A stretch of 64,000 nucleotides of DNA from assembly GCA_905234795.1 (NCBI GenBank), contig CAJOIQ010000001.1, positions 1-64,000 on the forward strand. Reading direction: 5' to 3'. The DNA comes from an uncultured Bacteroidales bacterium. GTDB lineage: Bacteria > Bacteroidota > Bacteroidia > Bacteroidales > UBA932. Every line of letters begins with the position of its first letter. Position 1 is the first letter of the stretch. A program made the position numbers and the translations under genes. The notes beneath the pieces were generated by a model, which saw nothing but the letters and a program-made list of their open reading frames with translations, had not been told where the DNA came from and did not search any database. Shown piece by piece: positions 7,715 to 39,567 of this stretch.

Positions 7715-9099
7715 AAAGAGTATTCCTGATCATAAGTTTAGCCTTGTTGCTGGTCCCCTCTTGTAAAAAACAGGAGGAAGGTTTCAAATGGAAAGAGGCC
7801 TGGGACAGCCAGACCCCCGTTGACCCCGATCCCGAGGAGCCTTCCCTTCCCGAGATTAAGGGGAAGTCCCGTTATATCTGGGTAGACGCCGCGGCCAATT
7901 TCCCGTATTACGCCAACGACCTGGCCTATATTGCCGAAGATTGTGAGCGTATTGCCCAGATGGGCTTTACCGATCTCATTGTGGACGTCCGTCCCACCAG
8001 CGGAGACGTACTGTTCACCTCATCCGTAGCCCCCGCCTGCCAAAAAGTGGCAGCTTGGGTCAATGGCAAATACCGCTGGGTGGAGCGTACGGCGACGTTT
8101 GACTACCTGGCACGCTTCATTGAAGCCGGCCATGCGGCAGGGCTTCGGGTGAACGCGGCCATCAACACCATGGTGGGAGGCTATCATTCTTCCATCGGCG
8201 ACGTGGGCATGCTCTATAACCAGCCGGGCCGCAAGAGCTGGTGCTCCGTAGACAATCTTCCGGGCGGTCTCACCAACGCCATGGACGATTCCGAGACGGG
8301 GCCGCGTTTCCTGGATCCAGCCAATCCCGATGTACAGGAATTCCTCCTCACCCTACTGGGAGAATTGGCTGCTTATGAAGGACTGGACGGTATTGTGCTG
8401 GACCGCTGCCGCTACGACGACAACAACCTGGATGCCGGATATACCGATGCTGCGAAAGATGCCTTCACCACATATCTGGGAAGTGCCCCGTCGGCATGGC
8501 CGGTGATGCCGCAGGGCCAGACTTACGTCAGCTCCAATCCCTCTACCCTCCAGCGCAGCTGGCTCACCTTCCGTTGCAAGGTCATCCATGACTTTGTGGA
8601 AAAGGCCGCCGCCAAGGTGCATTCGGTGAATGCCGATGTACGCTTCGGAGTATATGTAGGAGCCTGGTTCAGCGAATATTACCGCTCCGGTGTCAACTGG
8701 ACCAGTTCCCAGTACAATGTCAAGAAGGAAGAATCCACCTACAAGTGGGTCCCCAACAATTACCAGAAAACCGGCTTTGCCGACCTGCTGGACTTTATTT
8801 TCCTGGGAGCCTATGCCGGGACAAACGGCGTCCACGGTTCATCGGAATGGACCATGGAGGGTTTTGCCAAACTGGGTGCCAAGCGACTGGCCGGAGCGGT
8901 TCCTTTTGCCGCAGGTCCCGATATCGGCAATGGCACCGGGTTCGAAGGCGGTCACCAGGAGGCCCTGATTCCAGATATTGTCGATACCATGTTGAAAAAC
9001 TCCGACGGATTGTTTATCTTTGACCTATGCCACATCCGTATGTTCGAATACTGGAAAGCTTTCGAAGACGGAATCAATGCTTATTTGAAAACTCTATAA
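7711..9099 (+). CDS. GHL10-type (PF02638-like) glycoside hydrolase-like lipoprotein, paralog 1
   Basis: YIWVDAAANFP...MGFTDLIVDVRPTSGDVLF...YEGLDGIVLDRCRYDDNNLDAGYTDAAK; start ATG 7711 overlaps upstream stop; lipoprotein signal LVPSCKK. Confidence 0.8.
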   Translation: MKRVFLIISLALLLVPSCKKQEEGFKWKEAWDSQTPVDPDPEEPSLPEIKGKSRYIWVDAAANFPYYANDLAYIAEDCERIAQMGFTDLIVDVRPTSGDVLFTSSVAPACQKVAAWVNGKYRWVERTATFDYLARFIEAGHAAGLRVNAAINTMVGGYHSSIGDVGMLYNQPGRKSWCSVDNLPGGLTNAMDDSETGPRFLDPANPDVQEFLLTLLGELAAYEGLDGIVLDRCRYDDNNLDAGYTDAAKDAFTTYLGSAPSAWPVMPQGQTYVSSNPSTLQRSWLTFRCKVIHDFVEKAAAKVHSVNADVRFGVYVGAWFSEYYRSGVNWTSSQYNVKKEESTYKWVPNNYQKTGFADLLDFIFLGAYAGTNGVHGSSEWTMEGFAKLGAKRLAGAVPFAAGPDIGNGTGFEGGHQEALIPDIVDTMLKNSDGLFIFDLCHIRMFEYWKAFEDGINAYLKTL

Positions 9100-30763: not shown

Positions 30764-31963
30764 TTAATTCCTTAACCAACCCTCGGGGTTTTGGGGGACG
30801 GCTCCGTTCCACAGCTCGAAGTGGAAGAGGTCTTCACCGTCGATGCTGTCTACGGTGCCTACTACCTGGCCGGTGGTGACGCTGTCTCCCACTTTCACGG
30901 CTACGCTCTTGAGTTTGCTGTACAGGGTAAAGTAGGCGCCGTGGCTCACCAGCACACACTGGTTGTAGCCGGGCAACACCACAATCTGGGATACTTTACC
31001 GTTGAAGACAGCCTTGGCCTGGGCGCCGGGGCGCACGGCCAGGGTGACGCCGTTGTTCTGCGGCAGTTCCACATTGGTATAAACGGGGTGATGATGTTTG
31101 CCGAAACGCTCCACAATGGCACCTTCCACGGGCCAGGGCAGACGGCCGCGGTTGGCGGCGAACTCGTTGGAAAGCTTGGTGTCGATGGCCGTGGAAGTGG
31201 TTTTGCCGGAGGTTTTCCCGGCATTCTTGGCGGCCTTCTGGCTCTCCCGCCGGATCAAATCGGCAATCTTCTTGTTCAGAGCCTCCTTCTGACGGTTTTT
31301 CTCTGCCAGCTGCTTCTGGAACTTTTTGCGGTCCTTGCCCAGCTGGTTCACCAGCTTGTTGGCATCGGCCTCCTCATTCTTGAGTTTACTGCGTTCTCCC
31401 ACCACTTTCCGACGCATGTCGCCGGCATCTTTCCGAAGTCCGTTCAGGCGCTCTTTCTCCACCTCCAGCTGGGCCGATGTCTCCCGGATGCGCAGGGCCT
31501 GCGCGCTCATCTCGGCCGACATGCCCCGCAGGTAACCGGCCCGCTTGAGTCCCTGGCCGATGGACTCCGAGGAAAGGATGTACATGTACCACAGGCGGCT
31601 GTCGCGGTTTTTATAGGCCCCGCGAACCAGGCGGCCGTAGTAGAGGGAAAGGGTGTCGTGGCGTGCCTGGAGTTTTTTGATCTCCTTCTGGCACACGGCT
31701 ATGGAATCGTCCAGCATGCGGATGGTCTGGTCGCAGCCGGTGATGAGTTTTTCCCGGGATTGGATTTTGCTTTTGAGCAGGGACAGACTGGACAGCGCAG
31801 CATCCTTGTTCTTGGCGTTCTGTTCCAACTTGCGGTTTAACATGGCAATATCCTTTTCCAGCTGTGCCCGCTGGCTTTCCAGCTTTTTCATGCTGGTTTG
31901 CTGGCCCGCCGCCGGAAGGCTGCAGACCAGCACCATGGCCAGTATGCACAGGAACTTTCTCAT
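30764..31963 (-). CDS. EnvC/M23-like murein hydrolase activator (degenerate LytM)
   Basis: Signal peptide, long coiled-coil, C-terminal LytM-like domain lacking intact HLHFE/HxGxD motifs. Confidence 0.82.
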   Translation of the reverse strand: MRKFLCILAMVLVCSLPAAGQQTSMKKLESQRAQLEKDIAMLNRKLEQNAKNKDAALSSLSLLKSKIQSREKLITGCDQTIRMLDDSIAVCQKEIKKLQARHDTLSLYYGRLVRGAYKNRDSRLWYMYILSSESIGQGLKRAGYLRGMSAEMSAQALRIRETSAQLEVEKERLNGLRKDAGDMRRKVVGERSKLKNEEADANKLVNQLGKDRKKFQKQLAEKNRQKEALNKKIADLIRRESQKAAKNAGKTSGKTTSTAIDTKLSNEFAANRGRLPWPVEGAIVERFGKHHHPVYTNVELPQNNGVTLAVRPGAQAKAVFNGKVSQIVVLPGYNQCVLVSHGAYFTLYSKLKSVAVKVGDSVTTGQVVGTVDSIDGEDLFHFELWNGAVPQNPEGWLRN

Positions 31964-33585
31964 GGATTCAGGCGTTTGGCCATGTTACGGTATACCTTGG
32001 CGGCATCGGCCTCTCCCAGGGACTCCAGCACCACGGCATAGTGTTCCAGGATGACGGCGCTGTCCTTGCCGCCGTACAGCATGGCATGCTTGAAGAAGGG
32101 TTTGGCTTCCAGGTCCTTGCCCTGCAGGTGCAGGATCCAGGCAAAAGTGTCCAGATAGGTGGCGTTGTCGGGTTCGGCCTCAACGGTTTTCTTGGACATC
32201 TTGTAGGCTTTGTTCAGCTTTTTCCCCTCCAGGCTCAGATAATAGGCGTAATTGTTGAGCACCGGGGCGTAGTCCGGATTGAGTTTGAGGGCTTTTTCGT
32301 AGGCTTTGTAGGCGCTCCTGCTGTCTCCCTTGGAATGGTAGGCGTCCCCCATCATGGACCATGCACCCACGCACAGGGCCTTTTCCTTGGGGTAGTTGGA
32401 AAGGATGAACTTGCTGTTGCCGATGATGGCGTCGTAGTCCTCCAGCTGATAATTGGCGCTGTTGGCAAAGTCCAGGAAGCCCAGGTCATGGAACCGGTCG
32501 AAGGCGCTCATGGAACGGTCCCGCAGGTCCTCCCACTTGTTCAGGATGCTCAGATACTGGAGGTAGGTCACCGTCTGGCCGATGCTTTCCGGGTGGGAAT
32601 CGGCGGCCTGACGGAACCATCGGCCCGCTTCTTCCTGCCGGCCGGTGTGGTAGAAGTAGTTTCCCGCGGCCGACAGCACGCTGGTGTCGGCGGGATGCGT
32701 TTCCGTGGCCAGGCTCACCAGGGAGTCGAAACCCTCCCGGTGCAGCTGCAGGATCTTGGGATCCAGGCCACGCGTAATGTTGGTCAAGTACATTCCCTTG
32801 CTCACGGCCGGAGCCTCCTGAGAGGCGAAGAAGGGGCGCAGGGAGTTGAAGTACTCCGGATAATTGCGCTGGTGGCGGTAGACTTCGGCCATGCCCATCA
32901 TGGCGGGGATGTAGCCGCTGTCCAGCGACAAGGCTTCCTGGTAGCGCGCCTGCGCCAGGGAATCGGAATACTCGGACAGATAATAGTCTCCCGTGATGGA
33001 AAGGACCGTGGCCGATGAGAATTCCTTGTTGTAATTCTCCAGCACCTGGACGCCTTCGTCGGGCCGGCCCATGGCGCACAGTACGTCGTACTTGGTGCGC
33101 ACCACTTCCTCCGACGTTCCCCGCTGCCGCGTGATGTCGTCCAAAGCCGTGAGGGCCTTTTCAAACTGACTCTGCTTGAGATAGACGTCCAGCAGCTCGT
33201 AAACGGAATTGTCTTTGTCCGGGAAAGCCTTTACCAGGGCTTCGTACATGGCCATGCCTTCCTGCGGTTTGTTATGCATCAGATACATGCGGGCCAGCAT
33301 GCGGCGGTACCAGTAGTTGCCGCTGTCCAGGGCAACGGCCTTGGCCAGGGAGGCTTCGGCGCCGTCCAGGTCGTTGGACACGGTCTGGGTGAGGGCCAGG
33401 TAATACCACACGGCGTCGTCCTGCGGTGCGGCTACGGATAAGGTATGCAGCAACTCCTTTGCCTGTTTGATTTTGCCGTCGCTGTACAGCTGGACGGCAT
33501 CCACCAGGTTGGCCTCCACCTCCTGGGCGGTGGCCGAAAACAGGGCGGAACAAGTGAGGAGAAGAGTTAGAAGCTGTTTTTTCAC
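31960..33585 (-). CDS. Secreted tetratricopeptide-repeat protein (probable GTG start)
   Basis: Multiple TPRs (AYKAYEKALKLNPDYAPVLNNYAYYLSLEGKKLNKAYKMSKKTVEAEPDNATYLDTFAWILHLQGK); signal peptide starts at VKKQLLTLLLTCSALFSATAQ. Confidence 0.85.
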   Translation of the reverse strand: MKKQLLTLLLTCSALFSATAQEVEANLVDAVQLYSDGKIKQAKELLHTLSVAAPQDDAVWYYLALTQTVSNDLDGAEASLAKAVALDSGNYWYRRMLARMYLMHNKPQEGMAMYEALVKAFPDKDNSVYELLDVYLKQSQFEKALTALDDITRQRGTSEEVVRTKYDVLCAMGRPDEGVQVLENYNKEFSSATVLSITGDYYLSEYSDSLAQARYQEALSLDSGYIPAMMGMAEVYRHQRNYPEYFNSLRPFFASQEAPAVSKGMYLTNITRGLDPKILQLHREGFDSLVSLATETHPADTSVLSAAGNYFYHTGRQEEAGRWFRQAADSHPESIGQTVTYLQYLSILNKWEDLRDRSMSAFDRFHDLGFLDFANSANYQLEDYDAIIGNSKFILSNYPKEKALCVGAWSMMGDAYHSKGDSRSAYKAYEKALKLNPDYAPVLNNYAYYLSLEGKKLNKAYKMSKKTVEAEPDNATYLDTFAWILHLQGKDLEAKPFFKHAMLYGGKDSAVILEHYAVVLESLGEADAAKVYRNMAKRLNP

Positions 33586-33646
33586 AGTTGCAAAAATACG
33601 GGAATTTTTCGAAATTTGTATTTGCGAAAACAAAATCCGGACCTTT

Positions 33647-34201
33647 TTGAAACGTTTTTGGCCAAATCTGCATCTTATTAATCGGACAAGGGATAAGGAA
33701 TCCCCTGATGCAGCATCGTCCCCGGAGCAAATCTATAAAGCTCTTGCTCCCAAGATGATGGCGGTATGCCTGCGATACATGGGCAACCGTGAGGATGCCG
33801 AGGACGTTCTCCAGGAAGGATTCATCACCCTGTTCAATAAACTGGACAGCTACCAGGGGACCGGTTCCTTTGAAGGCTGGGCGCGTAAGATCTTTGTCAA
33901 TACTGCCCTGATGCATCTCAGACGCACGGACGCCCTGGGATTGAGCGACGACATCTCCGAAGCCCGCACCCTCTTTACAGAGGAGGCCACCCCGGTACAG
34001 AAAATGGGATACAAGGAACTGATGCGGCTCATAGAGTCGCTTCCCCCCGATTCCAGAACGGTGTTCAACATGTATGTGATAGAGGGTTATTCCCACAAGG
34101 AAATAGCGGAAGAACTGGGATGCACGGAAGCCACATCGCGCTCCAAACTGCAGCGCGCACGGCTCAGGTTGCAGGAACTGATAAACGAAAGCAGTAAATG
34201 A
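33647..34201 (+). CDS. ECF-type RNA polymerase sigma factor (start uncertain)
   Basis: MAVCLRYMGNREDAEDVLQEGFITLFNKLDSYQGTGSFEGWARKIFVNTAL and region 4 VIEGYSHKEIAEELGCTEATSRSKLQRARLRLQ; no clear ATG before 33755, so the start is a guess. Confidence 0.85.
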   Translation: MKRFWPNLHLINRTRDKESPDAASSPEQIYKALAPKMMAVCLRYMGNREDAEDVLQEGFITLFNKLDSYQGTGSFEGWARKIFVNTALMHLRRTDALGLSDDISEARTLFTEEATPVQKMGYKELMRLIESLPPDSRTVFNMYVIEGYSHKEIAEELGCTEATSRSKLQRARLRLQELINESSK

Positions 34202-35391
34202 ACGAAGAGTTTGACAAGTATGTAAGGAACCTTCTGCAGGACGCAGAAGAGGAAGTCTCCCCACGGGTTTGGGAAGGCGTGGCGGCGGAGCTTGGTAAAA
34301 AGCACCGTGTGGTTCCTGTGTGGAGTTGGGCGGCGGTCTCCGTGGCCGCAGCAGCTGCCGTAGTGGCCGCATTCGTTGTATTCCATTCTAACCCTACTAT
34401 ATCTTCTTTTGAAACGCCGGCGGCAACCGCGCTGGCCCAGCCGGAAACCCCGGTGGTGGCTCAGGATGAGGAAGTTATTATTCCCGTACAGGAAGTACTG
34501 CAGCTTCCCGCCCCCAGGAAAGCGGTTGCCGCAAAGCGTTCGCGCAAAGGGGCCGTATCTCCGGCCGCCATTGCCGCCGTCCCGGCCGACGTACGAATTG
34601 TAACGGTTCCCAAACAGGAGCCCGTACGTCTGCTGCAAAAAGCCATCGCCCCCGATACCGGGCGCCTGGCACTGGTAGACGACAACACCCTTCTTAACCA
34701 GCTGGCCCACTCGGAGCGTAAAACCGCATCCGACAAAGGACTGTCCCTGCTTGCCGCAGGTCATGTTCAGGGCAACCAGCGTGGGGAAGTGGGCCGCGCC
34801 TTCGTCCCCAAGCCCTTCACCGCACCGCCGCTTGGCGCAGCCGAGGGCCTTTATAATGCAACCCCGGAAACCAATTTCCGCCTTCCGTTCTCCATCGGCC
34901 TGGGTGTGCGGTATAATTTCACCGACCGCTGGGCCATCGGTACTGGAGTGCGCTACACCAATCTGGGCCGTACCTTCCTGGCCGATTTCGTGTCGGCCGA
35001 CGGTATCACCGTTCCCCAGACCGATGTCGATAACCAGCAGCACTGGCTTGGCATTCCCCTTTCCGTATACTTCGACATCGTGAACCGAGGCCGCTGGCGT
35101 GTGCACAGCTTCGTGGGTGGCACCGCCGAATTCCTGCTGAGCGACAGTTACCTGGTACACTATTCCCCCCAGGATATCCCTTACCGCCAGGACACCAAAG
35201 CAGGCCCGCAGTGGTCTGTCTCCGTCGGTCTGGGTGTGGAGTTCCGCATCACTCCCCGCGTGGGCATCTACCTGGATCCTAACTTCCGCTATTACTTCAA
35301 CGCCCAGAAACAGCCGCGCTCCCTTCGCACCATCCAGCCCCTCCGCTTCGAGATGGAGGCCGGTGTGCGCTTCAGCTTCGGCCAGCAATAA
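34198..35391 (+). CDS. Anti-sigma-like N-terminus and TM segment fused to an outer-membrane beta-barrel domain
   Basis: MNEEFDKYVRNLLQDAEEEVSPRVWEGVAAEL, then SWAAVSVAAAAAVVAAFVVF, then barrel-like C-terminus ending RFSFGQQ; ATGA overlap with the sigma factor gene. Confidence 0.7.
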   Translation: MNEEFDKYVRNLLQDAEEEVSPRVWEGVAAELGKKHRVVPVWSWAAVSVAAAAAVVAAFVVFHSNPTISSFETPAATALAQPETPVVAQDEEVIIPVQEVLQLPAPRKAVAAKRSRKGAVSPAAIAAVPADVRIVTVPKQEPVRLLQKAIAPDTGRLALVDDNTLLNQLAHSERKTASDKGLSLLAAGHVQGNQRGEVGRAFVPKPFTAPPLGAAEGLYNATPETNFRLPFSIGLGVRYNFTDRWAIGTGVRYTNLGRTFLADFVSADGITVPQTDVDNQQHWLGIPLSVYFDIVNRGRWRVHSFVGGTAEFLLSDSYLVHYSPQDIPYRQDTKAGPQWSVSVGLGVEFRITPRVGIYLDPNFRYYFNAQKQPRSLRTIQPLRFEMEAGVRFSFGQQ

Positions 35392-35454: not shown

Positions 35455-35463
35455 GTGCTTGTT

Positions 35464-35546
35464 GGTGTGCACGGAGAGGCCGATTTGCACACGGAGAGGG
35501 CTAAAGTGAGCCTCCGTGTGCAAAAAACGGCTCTGGTGCACACGGA
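35464..35546. repeat. REP/BIME-like palindromic repeat, copy A
   Basis: 83 bp; inner stem TTTGCACACGGAG/CTCCGTGTGCAAA (35484-35496/35512-35524); outer arms GTGTGCAC/GTGCACAC; 80/83 identical to copy B. Confidence 0.85.
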
Positions 35547-35668
35547 ATTCGCACTTTTTGGGCAACAAAAACAACCTCTCATGCGCTTCTGTTGCTGTTT
35601 TTGCAGATTATCCGTTTCATTTTTGCTGAAACGGATAAGTATTCATTACTTTGTAAAAAGATAATGCC

Positions 35669-36571
35669 ATGAGTTTTTGGGACAAAGAAAGCATTTGTGA
35701 ACAACGGTTTCGACAAGGAGGACCCTTTTACATTGTGACCACAGAAAACCTTCCCTGGTTGCTGTTTACCAGTGAGCAGGAGTTCATTGACGGCACCAAC
35801 ATGGTAGCGGTGGCGTTGGCAGGTCTTAGATTACGGCTTCTGAACGAAGTCATGATGAACAATCACCTGCATTTCCTTCTAGAGGGGTCATATGAGGGGG
35901 TTCTTGTTTTTACAGATCGGCTAAGAAAAGCCATGAGCCGATATCAAATTGCGCGGGGTAATCCTTCCCTGGCCAATTGGGAGATCCAGGTTAAGGTAAT
36001 TGAGAATCTACGTAATCTCCGTAACGCCATTCTCTACATCTCCCGTAATCCATCGGTAGCCGGACGCAATGTTACTCCCGTCGGCTACAAATGGAGTAGC
36101 GCCCAGCTGATGTTTAACCAGAATCTCCAATACTATCTGGCCGGTGTGCCTTTTGACACCCTGACGTACAGGGAAAAGAGAGAGATTGTGCACTCGAGAG
36201 ATTTAACGTTGCCCAATTCCTACCGTATACTGGACGGAATGATTCTCCGACAAAGTTTTGTGGATTACAAACGAGCCGAGGAATTCTTTGAATCGGCCCA
36301 CCAGTACTTCCGCCTCCTGGCCCGGCGCGTCGAGTCCGACGCCGAGACTGCCCGTTGGTTAGGCGAAACCATCCTTCTCCCCAACGAGGATGTCTTCCGC
36401 ATTGTGGCCGATTGGTATAACGTGAAGATGGTAAGTCTTTTAAACCCTAACCAACGCCTGGAGGCAGCCCGCCGCATGAAAGCGGAACTCATGAGCAACA
36501 ACAAACAGATTGCTCAAGTTCTTCGCCTGCCCCTTGAGCAAATTGACCGGTTCTTCCCGGTTGCCAAATAA
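35669..36571 (+). CDS. IS200/RAYT-like Y1 (HUH) transposase
   Basis: HUH motif in NNHLHFLLEG, preceding FYIVTTENLPWLLFTS core, C-terminal HTH-like AARRMKAELMSNNKQIAQVLRLPLEQIDRFFP; flanked by palindromic repeats. Confidence 0.8.
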   Translation: MSFWDKESICEQRFRQGGPFYIVTTENLPWLLFTSEQEFIDGTNMVAVALAGLRLRLLNEVMMNNHLHFLLEGSYEGVLVFTDRLRKAMSRYQIARGNPSLANWEIQVKVIENLRNLRNAILYISRNPSVAGRNVTPVGYKWSSAQLMFNQNLQYYLAGVPFDTLTYREKREIVHSRDLTLPNSYRILDGMILRQSFVDYKRAEEFFESAHQYFRLLARRVESDAETARWLGETILLPNEDVFRIVADWYNVKMVSLLNPNQRLEAARRMKAELMSNNKQIAQVLRLPLEQIDRFFPVAK

Positions 36572-36581
36572 TAAATGAAAA

Positions 36582-38429
36582 CTATTTCTTGAGAGCGCGG
36601 ATAATCCGGTCTTCCTGAATAAGAACATCCTTCATAAGCATCTGGATTGTAACCTTTTTACTGGGATGCTCTTTGTATGCGTTGTATATGGCAAGGAGAG
36701 AAGACGCTTTCAGTAAAGAAATGTTGAGCTCGAAATCATCCCCACAATCGGAAACGAAATCTTCAGAGAAGTCGGGAGCTACAACAAGAATCTTCACAAC
36801 GTTAAAACCGTTTTTCTCCAATAGCGTTTTATAAGAACGCACCTGACGCGAAATAGCGCTGAATTTATTATAACCGCTATCCTTAACGGTCTTACACTCA
36901 ATAAGAACGACATCTGTATCATCTATCTTGACGAGGATATCCATCTTATCCTTGTCGGTGTTCAATTTCCCTCTCAGTTTCTCGTCCACATCAAATCCCA
37001 ATCCCGAGAAAATGAACTTAGTGACACTTTCAAACTTTACTCCTATCTCGGCTTCCTTGATAAAGATTCCATTGCTCTTCAGAGCATTTAGATCCCTATT
37101 GCCCAGGCTTTCATAGTTCTCGACAAACAAACTCTCGGAGTCTTTGTAAGACGCCAGGATATTGTCTATGACATTGCCACGAGTCTTAATGTTTCTTGCC
37201 TCACATAAAACAACAAGTTCCTCTGTTGGCAACAACTCAAGAACATCCCGGGGCATAATGTTATACTCTGTCAGATACTCTGAATGAAGAACATCCTCAT
37301 CTTGCAATTGAAAATTGCTCTTGATTATCTTGTTGGCAGAAGGAATATACTCGCCGATGTCAACCATTAATCGTTCATATCCGCTTGCAGAAATACCCAG
37401 ACGCTCGTTCTGATATAAATCATCAAAGTATGCTATCAGATTTGTGACCTTATCATCAAGACTACCTCCCTTGATGGGTGGGACAATGGATAGTTTGTCA
37501 TCGCATAATTCCACGATAACTTTCTTTCTGTCAACCAATTTGGTTTCCGGCTTGTGGATATCTTCTTTTAACAAAGACGAGAAGGAAATACCAGAGTCAA
37601 TAATCGTTTCTATCTTCTCCTGCAATGGAAGCTTGCTATCAATACCATGCTTACGGCATACCATATTAATCACGGGTTCACGAAGTTGGAGAAGAACTCT
37701 TCTATAAAACTTATCTGCTACTTCTCGACCGCGCAATTTGCGGAGAATGGCAACTACCTCATCGGCAACATAAATGGTGGATGTCTTTCTGGAAAGGAAG
37801 ACAAGTCCCCTGTCTTTCAATTCCGAAACGACATCGTCGATACTATCTTTTGTAATTCCTAATACAGAGTATTTTATCATCGTCACCTCATCCTGAGAGA
37901 GCTCAAGATTAGACGAGAGAGTATCAAGAATCGTTTGCTCATCGGCAGTTATCTTCGGGTCATAGTTTGACTTTTCATCGTTATGATAAGCAGTTCTCAA
38001 GCACTCGGCAAAGATTCTGTAATCTCGGATACGTAAAGGATCAATCGTAGGTTTCTCCGCATGAACATTCTTTTTAAAATCCTCGATAGCTTTTTTCTGG
38101 CGACGGATTTGGTCATCATACAACTTGGCGAACCAATCCAGGCGCATAATACAGTTACCATCCTTGGTAATGATGTCCAGTAAAATATCAAGTTGGGACG
38201 TTGTTTTTGTGTACTCTTCAAGTATGTATTCACCAAAGGCTGATGACACCTTGTTAAAGACCTCTGCCACCTGAAGCGAATCAGCATTCTTTAGATTTGT
38301 ATCGGCTCCTATAACGATTGAATCCAATTCCGAAGAATGTTTTTGATGGGAAACCAGAGTATTGATTACCTTAATGAATGCCCCTTTTTCCAAAGAGTTC
38401 AATTGGTCAAGAATCTTTTCGAGTTTCAT
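36582..38429 (-). CDS. 615-aa protein of unknown family with SAP-like segment and C-terminal PD-(D/E)XK-like nuclease motif
   Basis: C-terminal MDILVKIDDTDVVLIECKTVKD...QVRSYKTLLEKNGFNVVKILVVAPDF; LPTEELVVLCEARNIKTRGNVIDNIL SAP-like; AT-rich relative to neighbours. Confidence 0.6.
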   Translation of the reverse strand: MKLEKILDQLNSLEKGAFIKVINTLVSHQKHSSELDSIVIGADTNLKNADSLQVAEVFNKVSSAFGEYILEEYTKTTSQLDILLDIITKDGNCIMRLDWFAKLYDDQIRRQKKAIEDFKKNVHAEKPTIDPLRIRDYRIFAECLRTAYHNDEKSNYDPKITADEQTILDTLSSNLELSQDEVTMIKYSVLGITKDSIDDVVSELKDRGLVFLSRKTSTIYVADEVVAILRKLRGREVADKFYRRVLLQLREPVINMVCRKHGIDSKLPLQEKIETIIDSGISFSSLLKEDIHKPETKLVDRKKVIVELCDDKLSIVPPIKGGSLDDKVTNLIAYFDDLYQNERLGISASGYERLMVDIGEYIPSANKIIKSNFQLQDEDVLHSEYLTEYNIMPRDVLELLPTEELVVLCEARNIKTRGNVIDNILASYKDSESLFVENYESLGNRDLNALKSNGIFIKEAEIGVKFESVTKFIFSGLGFDVDEKLRGKLNTDKDKMDILVKIDDTDVVLIECKTVKDSGYNKFSAISRQVRSYKTLLEKNGFNVVKILVVAPDFSEDFVSDCGDDFELNISLLKASSLLAIYNAYKEHPSKKVTIQMLMKDVLIQEDRIIRALKK

Positions 38430-38459
38430 AATGGCGATTAATTACATATGTGGCAATAA

Positions 38460-38490
38460 CAAAGGTAAAAAACTCTCGGAAAAAAAGCAA
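38460..38490 (-). promoter_or_regulatory. Promoter of the 615-aa nuclease-like gene
   Basis: Minus TTG (38490-38488) - 20 nt - TACCTTTG (38467-38460); ATG at 38429. Confidence 0.65.
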
Positions 38491-38503
38491 GCCATCACTT
38501 ATC

Positions 38504-38586
38504 GGTGTGCACGGAGGGGCCGATTTGCACACGGACAGGGCTAAAGTGAGCCTCCGTGTGCAAAAAAGGGCTCTGGTGCACACGGA
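38504..38586. repeat. REP/BIME-like palindromic repeat, copy B
   Basis: 83 bp, direct repeat of 35464-35546 with three substitutions. Confidence 0.85.
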
Positions 38587-38604: not shown

Positions 38605-39438
38605 CTACGCGCGGAAAATCCCAAAGAAGGCGCTGCCGCTGCCACTCATGGCGGCGTAGACGGCGCCGCGGGCATAGAGCTCCTCCTTGACATGGGCCAG
38701 GGAGGGGTATTTTGTGAAGACCGTGGCCTCGAAGTCGTTGTGAAGGTCCTGGCGCCAGGTGGAGATATCCTGGGCCAGCACTTCCCTCAGTGGTTTGGGC
38801 GGCAGGGCGGGGACAATGCCGCGGTAGGCGTCGGCGGTGGAGACGGCCACGCCTTCCGGGATAAAGACTTCCAGCCGATAACCGCTCAAATCCAGATCAT
38901 AGGGCTCCAGGACTTCCCCGCGGCCGCTGCCGAACATGGGCCGGTTGTAGATGAAGAAGGCGCAGTCGCTGCCCAGGCGGGCGGCATAGGCGGCCAGGAC
39001 GTCATCGGCCAGGGAAAGGCCGGCCAGTTCGGAGATCATGCGGAGCGCGAAGGCGGCATCGGCACTGCCGCCACCCAGGCCGGCGCCCACGGGGGAGCGC
39101 TTTTCCAGGAATATCTTCATGGGCGGGAGGTCATAGTCGGCCGCCAGCAGCGCATACGCCTTGGCCGTGAGGTCCTTGAGCGGGTCCCAGTCCACGCCCT
39201 GTTCCCGGGCGATGGTGATCATGAGCTTGCCGTCCGGAGACACCGCCTGGGTAAGTTCTCCGTACTTTTCCTTGAGCCCTGCCAAGGTGCGGGACCAGTC
39301 TTCTCCGGTAACGATTTCCAGGACGTCGGAGATGCCGCAATAGGGGACAAAAAGGGTTTCCAGGTTGTGAAAACCGTCCGTTCTTTTGCTCAGGACGTTG
39401 AGCCCAAGATTGATTTTTACGTTAGGACAACTGATCAT
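38605..39438 (-). CDS. ispE: 4-diphosphocytidyl-2-C-methyl-D-erythritol kinase
   Basis: NVKINLGLNVLSKRTDGFHNLETLF, SPVGAGLGGGSADAAFALR, YAAMSGSGSAFFGIF; start MISCPN at 39438. Confidence 0.93.
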   Translation of the reverse strand: MISCPNVKINLGLNVLSKRTDGFHNLETLFVPYCGISDVLEIVTGEDWSRTLAGLKEKYGELTQAVSPDGKLMITIAREQGVDWDPLKDLTAKAYALLAADYDLPPMKIFLEKRSPVGAGLGGGSADAAFALRMISELAGLSLADDVLAAYAARLGSDCAFFIYNRPMFGSGRGEVLEPYDLDLSGYRLEVFIPEGVAVSTADAYRGIVPALPPKPLREVLAQDISTWRQDLHNDFEATVFTKYPSLAHVKEELYARGAVYAAMSGSGSAFFGIFRA

Positions 39439-39567
39439 AAACACAAAGATAATGCACAAATCGGTCAAAACATACAAATAAACAGCTAAAACACAACAAT
39501 GTTTTAGCCGAATATAGGAAATCCGAAACCGATTTTCCACCTTTCCGGGGTCAAAAATGAATGAGCT

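Follow-up and report, generated by a model that had tools for sequence, protein, structure and literature searches.

In the window, by which we mean the whole stretch of 64,000 nucleotides analysed, two genes are enclosed by a pair of repeats, with two host genes as flanks: an outer-membrane beta-barrel protein gene (34198..35391, + strand) on the left and ispE (38605..39540, - strand) on the right. The left repeat (35458..35546, + strand) is located downstream of the terminator of the outer-membrane protein gene, and the right repeat (38498..38586, + strand), a direct copy of the left one, is 18 bp from the ispE stop. Both are 89 bp in length and have the same orientation with 94% identity, and their palindromic core differs at three positions. 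The sole genes between them are a RAYT-like Y1/HUH transposase of 300 aa (35669..36571, + strand) and a putative FokI-like PD-(D/E)XK nuclease of 615 aa (36582..38429, - strand), which converge tail to tail with stop codons 10 bp apart. This layout agrees with the first-pass annotation, which had reported two same-orientation palindromic repeats with three differences, one after the upstream terminator and the other after the ispE stop, and only two converging genes between them.

The palindrome, previously given as 83 bp, resolves into a REP-like doublet of two 28-nt hairpins, which are exactly 51 bp apart, mutually inverted and built on GTGTGC/GCACAC stems. Since these two hairpins have opposite polarity, each repeat of the window can also pair as one long hairpin. 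When folded as single-stranded DNA, each repeat gave approximately -30 kcal/mol, compared with -12 for shuffled sequences (z of about -8). No third full copy turned up anywhere in the 2.29-Mb assembly (90% complete), and no Rfam family was matched at the island. A promoter-like site, TTGC-N19-TACCTTTG (38460..38490, - strand), is present between the start codon of the nuclease gene and the right repeat; this pattern, which follows the general promoter consensus of Bacteroidota, occurs five times in the window against 0.35 expected.

The HUH motif of the transposase (H66 and H68) and its catalytic tyrosine (Y123) are invariant in an alignment of 19 homologs, and the top matches of the profile against PDB are all TnpA proteins of IS200/IS605 (E = 0.002), which upholds the previous assignment of this protein as RAYT-like. 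Seven of the 19 alignment members matched Y1_Tnp (best E-value 8.7e-5), while the window sequence by itself gave no Pfam match and did not pass the NCBIfam REP_Tyr_transpos model (E = 0.012, 15.5 bits for a cut-off of 80). About 170 aa follow the catalytic tyrosine on the C-terminal side, and matches outside the family in a phylum-wide sample align to the core only, leaving this tail unmatched. A structure predicted from the one sequence had a pLDDT of 36 and was useless, and it was not used. Homologs were found in 88 of 101 genomes of the genus, often several per genome, and six were detected by profile in the window genome; a search of viral contigs with the single transposase protein gave no relatives.

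To characterize the repeats across the genus, 105 homologous transposase genes with enough flanking sequence were surveyed. Close repeats were present on both sides of 57 genes, in direct orientation for 52 and inverted for five; 21 more had a repeat pair farther off and 27 had no flanking pair. Among 211 neighbouring control genes from the same loci, only one shared a repeat, and the control regions had just one hairpin pair in total. A transposase gene accompanied by repeats is therefore standard in this genus, and the view that the repeats are REP-like partners of the transposase has been strengthened. Upstream of the transposase gene the median gap to the repeat is 111 bp, and downstream of it 12 bp; the bracketed units mostly enclose the transposase alone. 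Stem sequences are unrelated between loci, while the spacing of hairpin centres peaks at 51 bp (31 cases), followed by 50 and 52 bp. Doublets of the window family without a transposase were found at several places in two related genomes (G496 and G615), and another transposase of the window genome (C26 unit) has four solo copies of its own repeat. With repeats dispersed without a transposase in these three cases, the arrangement probably represents a REP/RAYT system. The window family itself has only its two copies in its own genome and is not dispersed there.

In the nuclease, a D and an E-x-K motif are present in an alpha-beta core, and E467, D497, E511 and K513 are invariant among 30 homologs. 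The predicted structure (pLDDT 88.6) has FokI as its top Foldseek match (E = 1.1e-3, probability 0.99), with an identity of only 11-12% in the structural alignment. The invariant motif and this best fold match bear out the former description as PD-(D/E)XK-like, and the modelled fold points to a FokI-like member. As in FokI and other PD-(D/E)XK nucleases such as EndoMS/NucS and Cap4, the core is C-terminal, carries D and E-x-K and is preceded by a helical and winged-helix-like region; the 615-aa nuclease differs in having no methyltransferase partner. The GC content of the gene is 40%, compared with 56% for the window. Its family is patchy, being found in four of 300 genomes of the bacterial family including the window genome, and its relatives reach other phyla, occurring in Bacteroidota, Pseudoalteromonas, Marinomonas, Arcobacter and others. 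A PHROG family was matched over the full length, and searches of phage records and viral contigs for this nuclease found none. In Pseudoalteromonas the neighbourhoods include HNH, SIR2 and helicase genes. An Ion_trans channel gene adjoins the nuclease gene, in either order, in 9 of 33 loci (L163-L184; for example, L167:7225-9851 and L163:8001-10628), and judged from gene neighbourhoods the two are a candidate two-gene system; the window has no such channel gene.

The transposase and nuclease are independent of each other: no such transposase was found at 36 other nuclease loci, and this nuclease was found at none of the other transposase loci surveyed. The first-pass annotation had asked whether the two co-occur, and they are not a recurring pair. 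The two genes occupy unrelated positions in relatives, which the first-pass annotation had named as a refutation; this applies to the pairing and leaves the association of transposase with repeats intact. The pairing is a one-off, and the nuclease is probably cargo captured by chance; it occupies the interval from the transposase stop to the right repeat, which is 12 bp in the median of other direct units. Accessory cargo was found in two, perhaps three, of about 60 direct units. In genome G160 (L111:5548-9313), direct repeats enclose a RAYT-like gene along with a Type II restriction-modification pair, whose methyltransferase is of the EcoRI type, and another direct unit (L297) encloses a small ORF of unknown kind. 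Long transposase-repeat gaps elsewhere were also considered as cargo and rejected, as they hold mostly ordinary host genes, often within inverted repeats. Because clear accessory cargo is present in one other unit and the other long gaps are mostly host genes, cargo capture looks real but rare. Both clear accessory cargos are nuclease systems; that units of this genus with direct paired-hairpin ends capture and carry restriction or defence genes in the manner of a single-strand transposon nevertheless seems quite unlikely to us. Apart from these units, a gene for a TIR-domain protein was observed near a RAYT-like gene inside inverted repeats in genome G177 (L150:2753-3724).

The closest relative found, G496 (ispE and nrdD 88% and 96% identical, respectively), carries a single doublet of the window family in its murH-ispE interval and lacks both the transposase and the nuclease gene there. 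A single-repeat site of this kind, with the same ispE flank and without the two island genes, had been envisaged for a relative. A block of four genes to the left of the island (murH-tpr-sigma-omp, 30764-35391 in the window) is inverted compared with the nearest relatives, G496 and G637, and the island thus sits at a rearrangement breakpoint. Because of this neighbouring inversion, the G496 site corresponds to that of the window only on its ispE flank. No repeat was found at the other breakpoint of the inversion, between nrdD and murH. In five more distant genomes omp and ispE are convergent with nothing between them, and gene order around the island is variable in the genus.

We consider it fairly likely that the island is a REP/RAYT (REPtron-like) unit, whose transposase belongs to a clade of long-tailed Y1 enzymes in this Bacteroidales genus, and that a nuclease gene of the restriction type, unrelated to the unit, has been inserted into it. 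The transposase would recognise paired hairpins spaced by 51 bp in single-stranded DNA and copy them about the genome; such copying would give each transposase its own repeat family, which brackets the gene and is sometimes scattered. Recombination between direct repeats could gain or lose the interval and leave one repeat, a state that matches the ispE flank of G496 and might reflect either gain in the window or loss in G496. The nuclease gene, horizontally transferred with its own promoter, would have entered the interval that separates the transposase stop from the right repeat, and its product is probably a stand-alone DNA-cleaving enzyme of a defence type, acting independently of the transposase. 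That the two proteins instead function together, for instance in a defence system of which the transposase is a part, is suggested by their tail-to-tail placement within one repeat pair; we rejected this on the lack of co-occurrence and regard it as highly improbable, the recurring partner of the nuclease being the ion-channel gene.

Another explanation is a composite mobile element, in which the transposase excises and inserts the whole 3.1 kb, with the repeats as IS605-like ends and the nuclease as cargo. The hairpin ends in the same orientation are closer to those of IS200/IS605 than to inverted-repeat ends, and the near-identity of the left and right repeats, the restriction-modification pair in the G160 unit and the single-repeat site in G496 are all in accord with such an element. 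We think it unlikely, since the window genome has no second copy of the element, the nuclease lacks such a transposase at all its other loci, accessory cargo is restricted to so few units, and REPtrons have been reported not to move as units (Quentin 2018, PMC6006769). The island might otherwise be a by-product of rearrangement, the repeat on the ispE flank having served as a breakpoint where inversion or recombination between repeats brought in the transposase and a neighbouring foreign gene. The island does lie at a breakpoint of the omp-sigma-tpr-murH inversion, at which G496 has a solo repeat; with the nrdD-murH breakpoint free of repeats, gene order variable in the genus and omp and ispE convergent without an island in the five distant genomes, we attach little probability to this origin.

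As in RAYT/REPtron systems (PMC2817692, PMC6006769), an HUH and single-tyrosine transposase gene is bracketed by its own palindromes, transposase-less copies occur elsewhere in some of the genomes, and each transposase examined in this respect has a repeat family of its own. The proteins of this genus differ in being about 300 aa long, which includes an extended C-terminal tail, in the presence of several divergent transposases per genome and in hairpins 51 bp apart; their repeats are mostly direct, whereas flanking REPs of published systems are mutually inverted (Nunvar 2010, PMC2817692). Subclass 2.6 of TnpA-Y1, which comprises Bacteroidetes RAYTs with atypical structures (PMC6006769), shares the occurrence in Bacteroidota, the NHLH motif and atypical hairpins at the gene and elsewhere, but has a median length of 179 aa compared with 300 aa here, YIH[QN]NP instead of YISRNP, and an HUH-Y distance of 82 instead of about 55. 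As with REPINs, which are hairpin-forming REP doublets (PMC3116915), dispersed copies are mostly doublets, and each inverted doublet of the window forms one long hairpin; in contrast to REPINs, many doublets of the genus have the same polarity, and the spacing of about 51 bp is kept across unrelated sequences. Neither doublets with a 51-bp spacing nor cargo in RAYT units were found described in the literature searched, which covered few subscription papers.

How REPs spread, and whether a RAYT recognises sequence or geometry, are still open questions. Since dozens of divergent transposases have their own repeat families and share the geometry of about 51 bp and the direct orientation, recognition and co-evolution are directly testable in this genus, and the single-repeat ispE flank of G496 provides a matched partner locus. 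Foreign nuclease genes can settle inside RAYT units, and the evidence for their transport is thin; the repeat system of the genus, fixed in geometry and variable in sequence, merits attention over the transposase-nuclease pairing. In a genome of another genus (G068), where no homologous transposase was found nearby, arrays of 51-bp repeats related to those of the window are located around host genes (L049:4701-5051 and 7960-8460).
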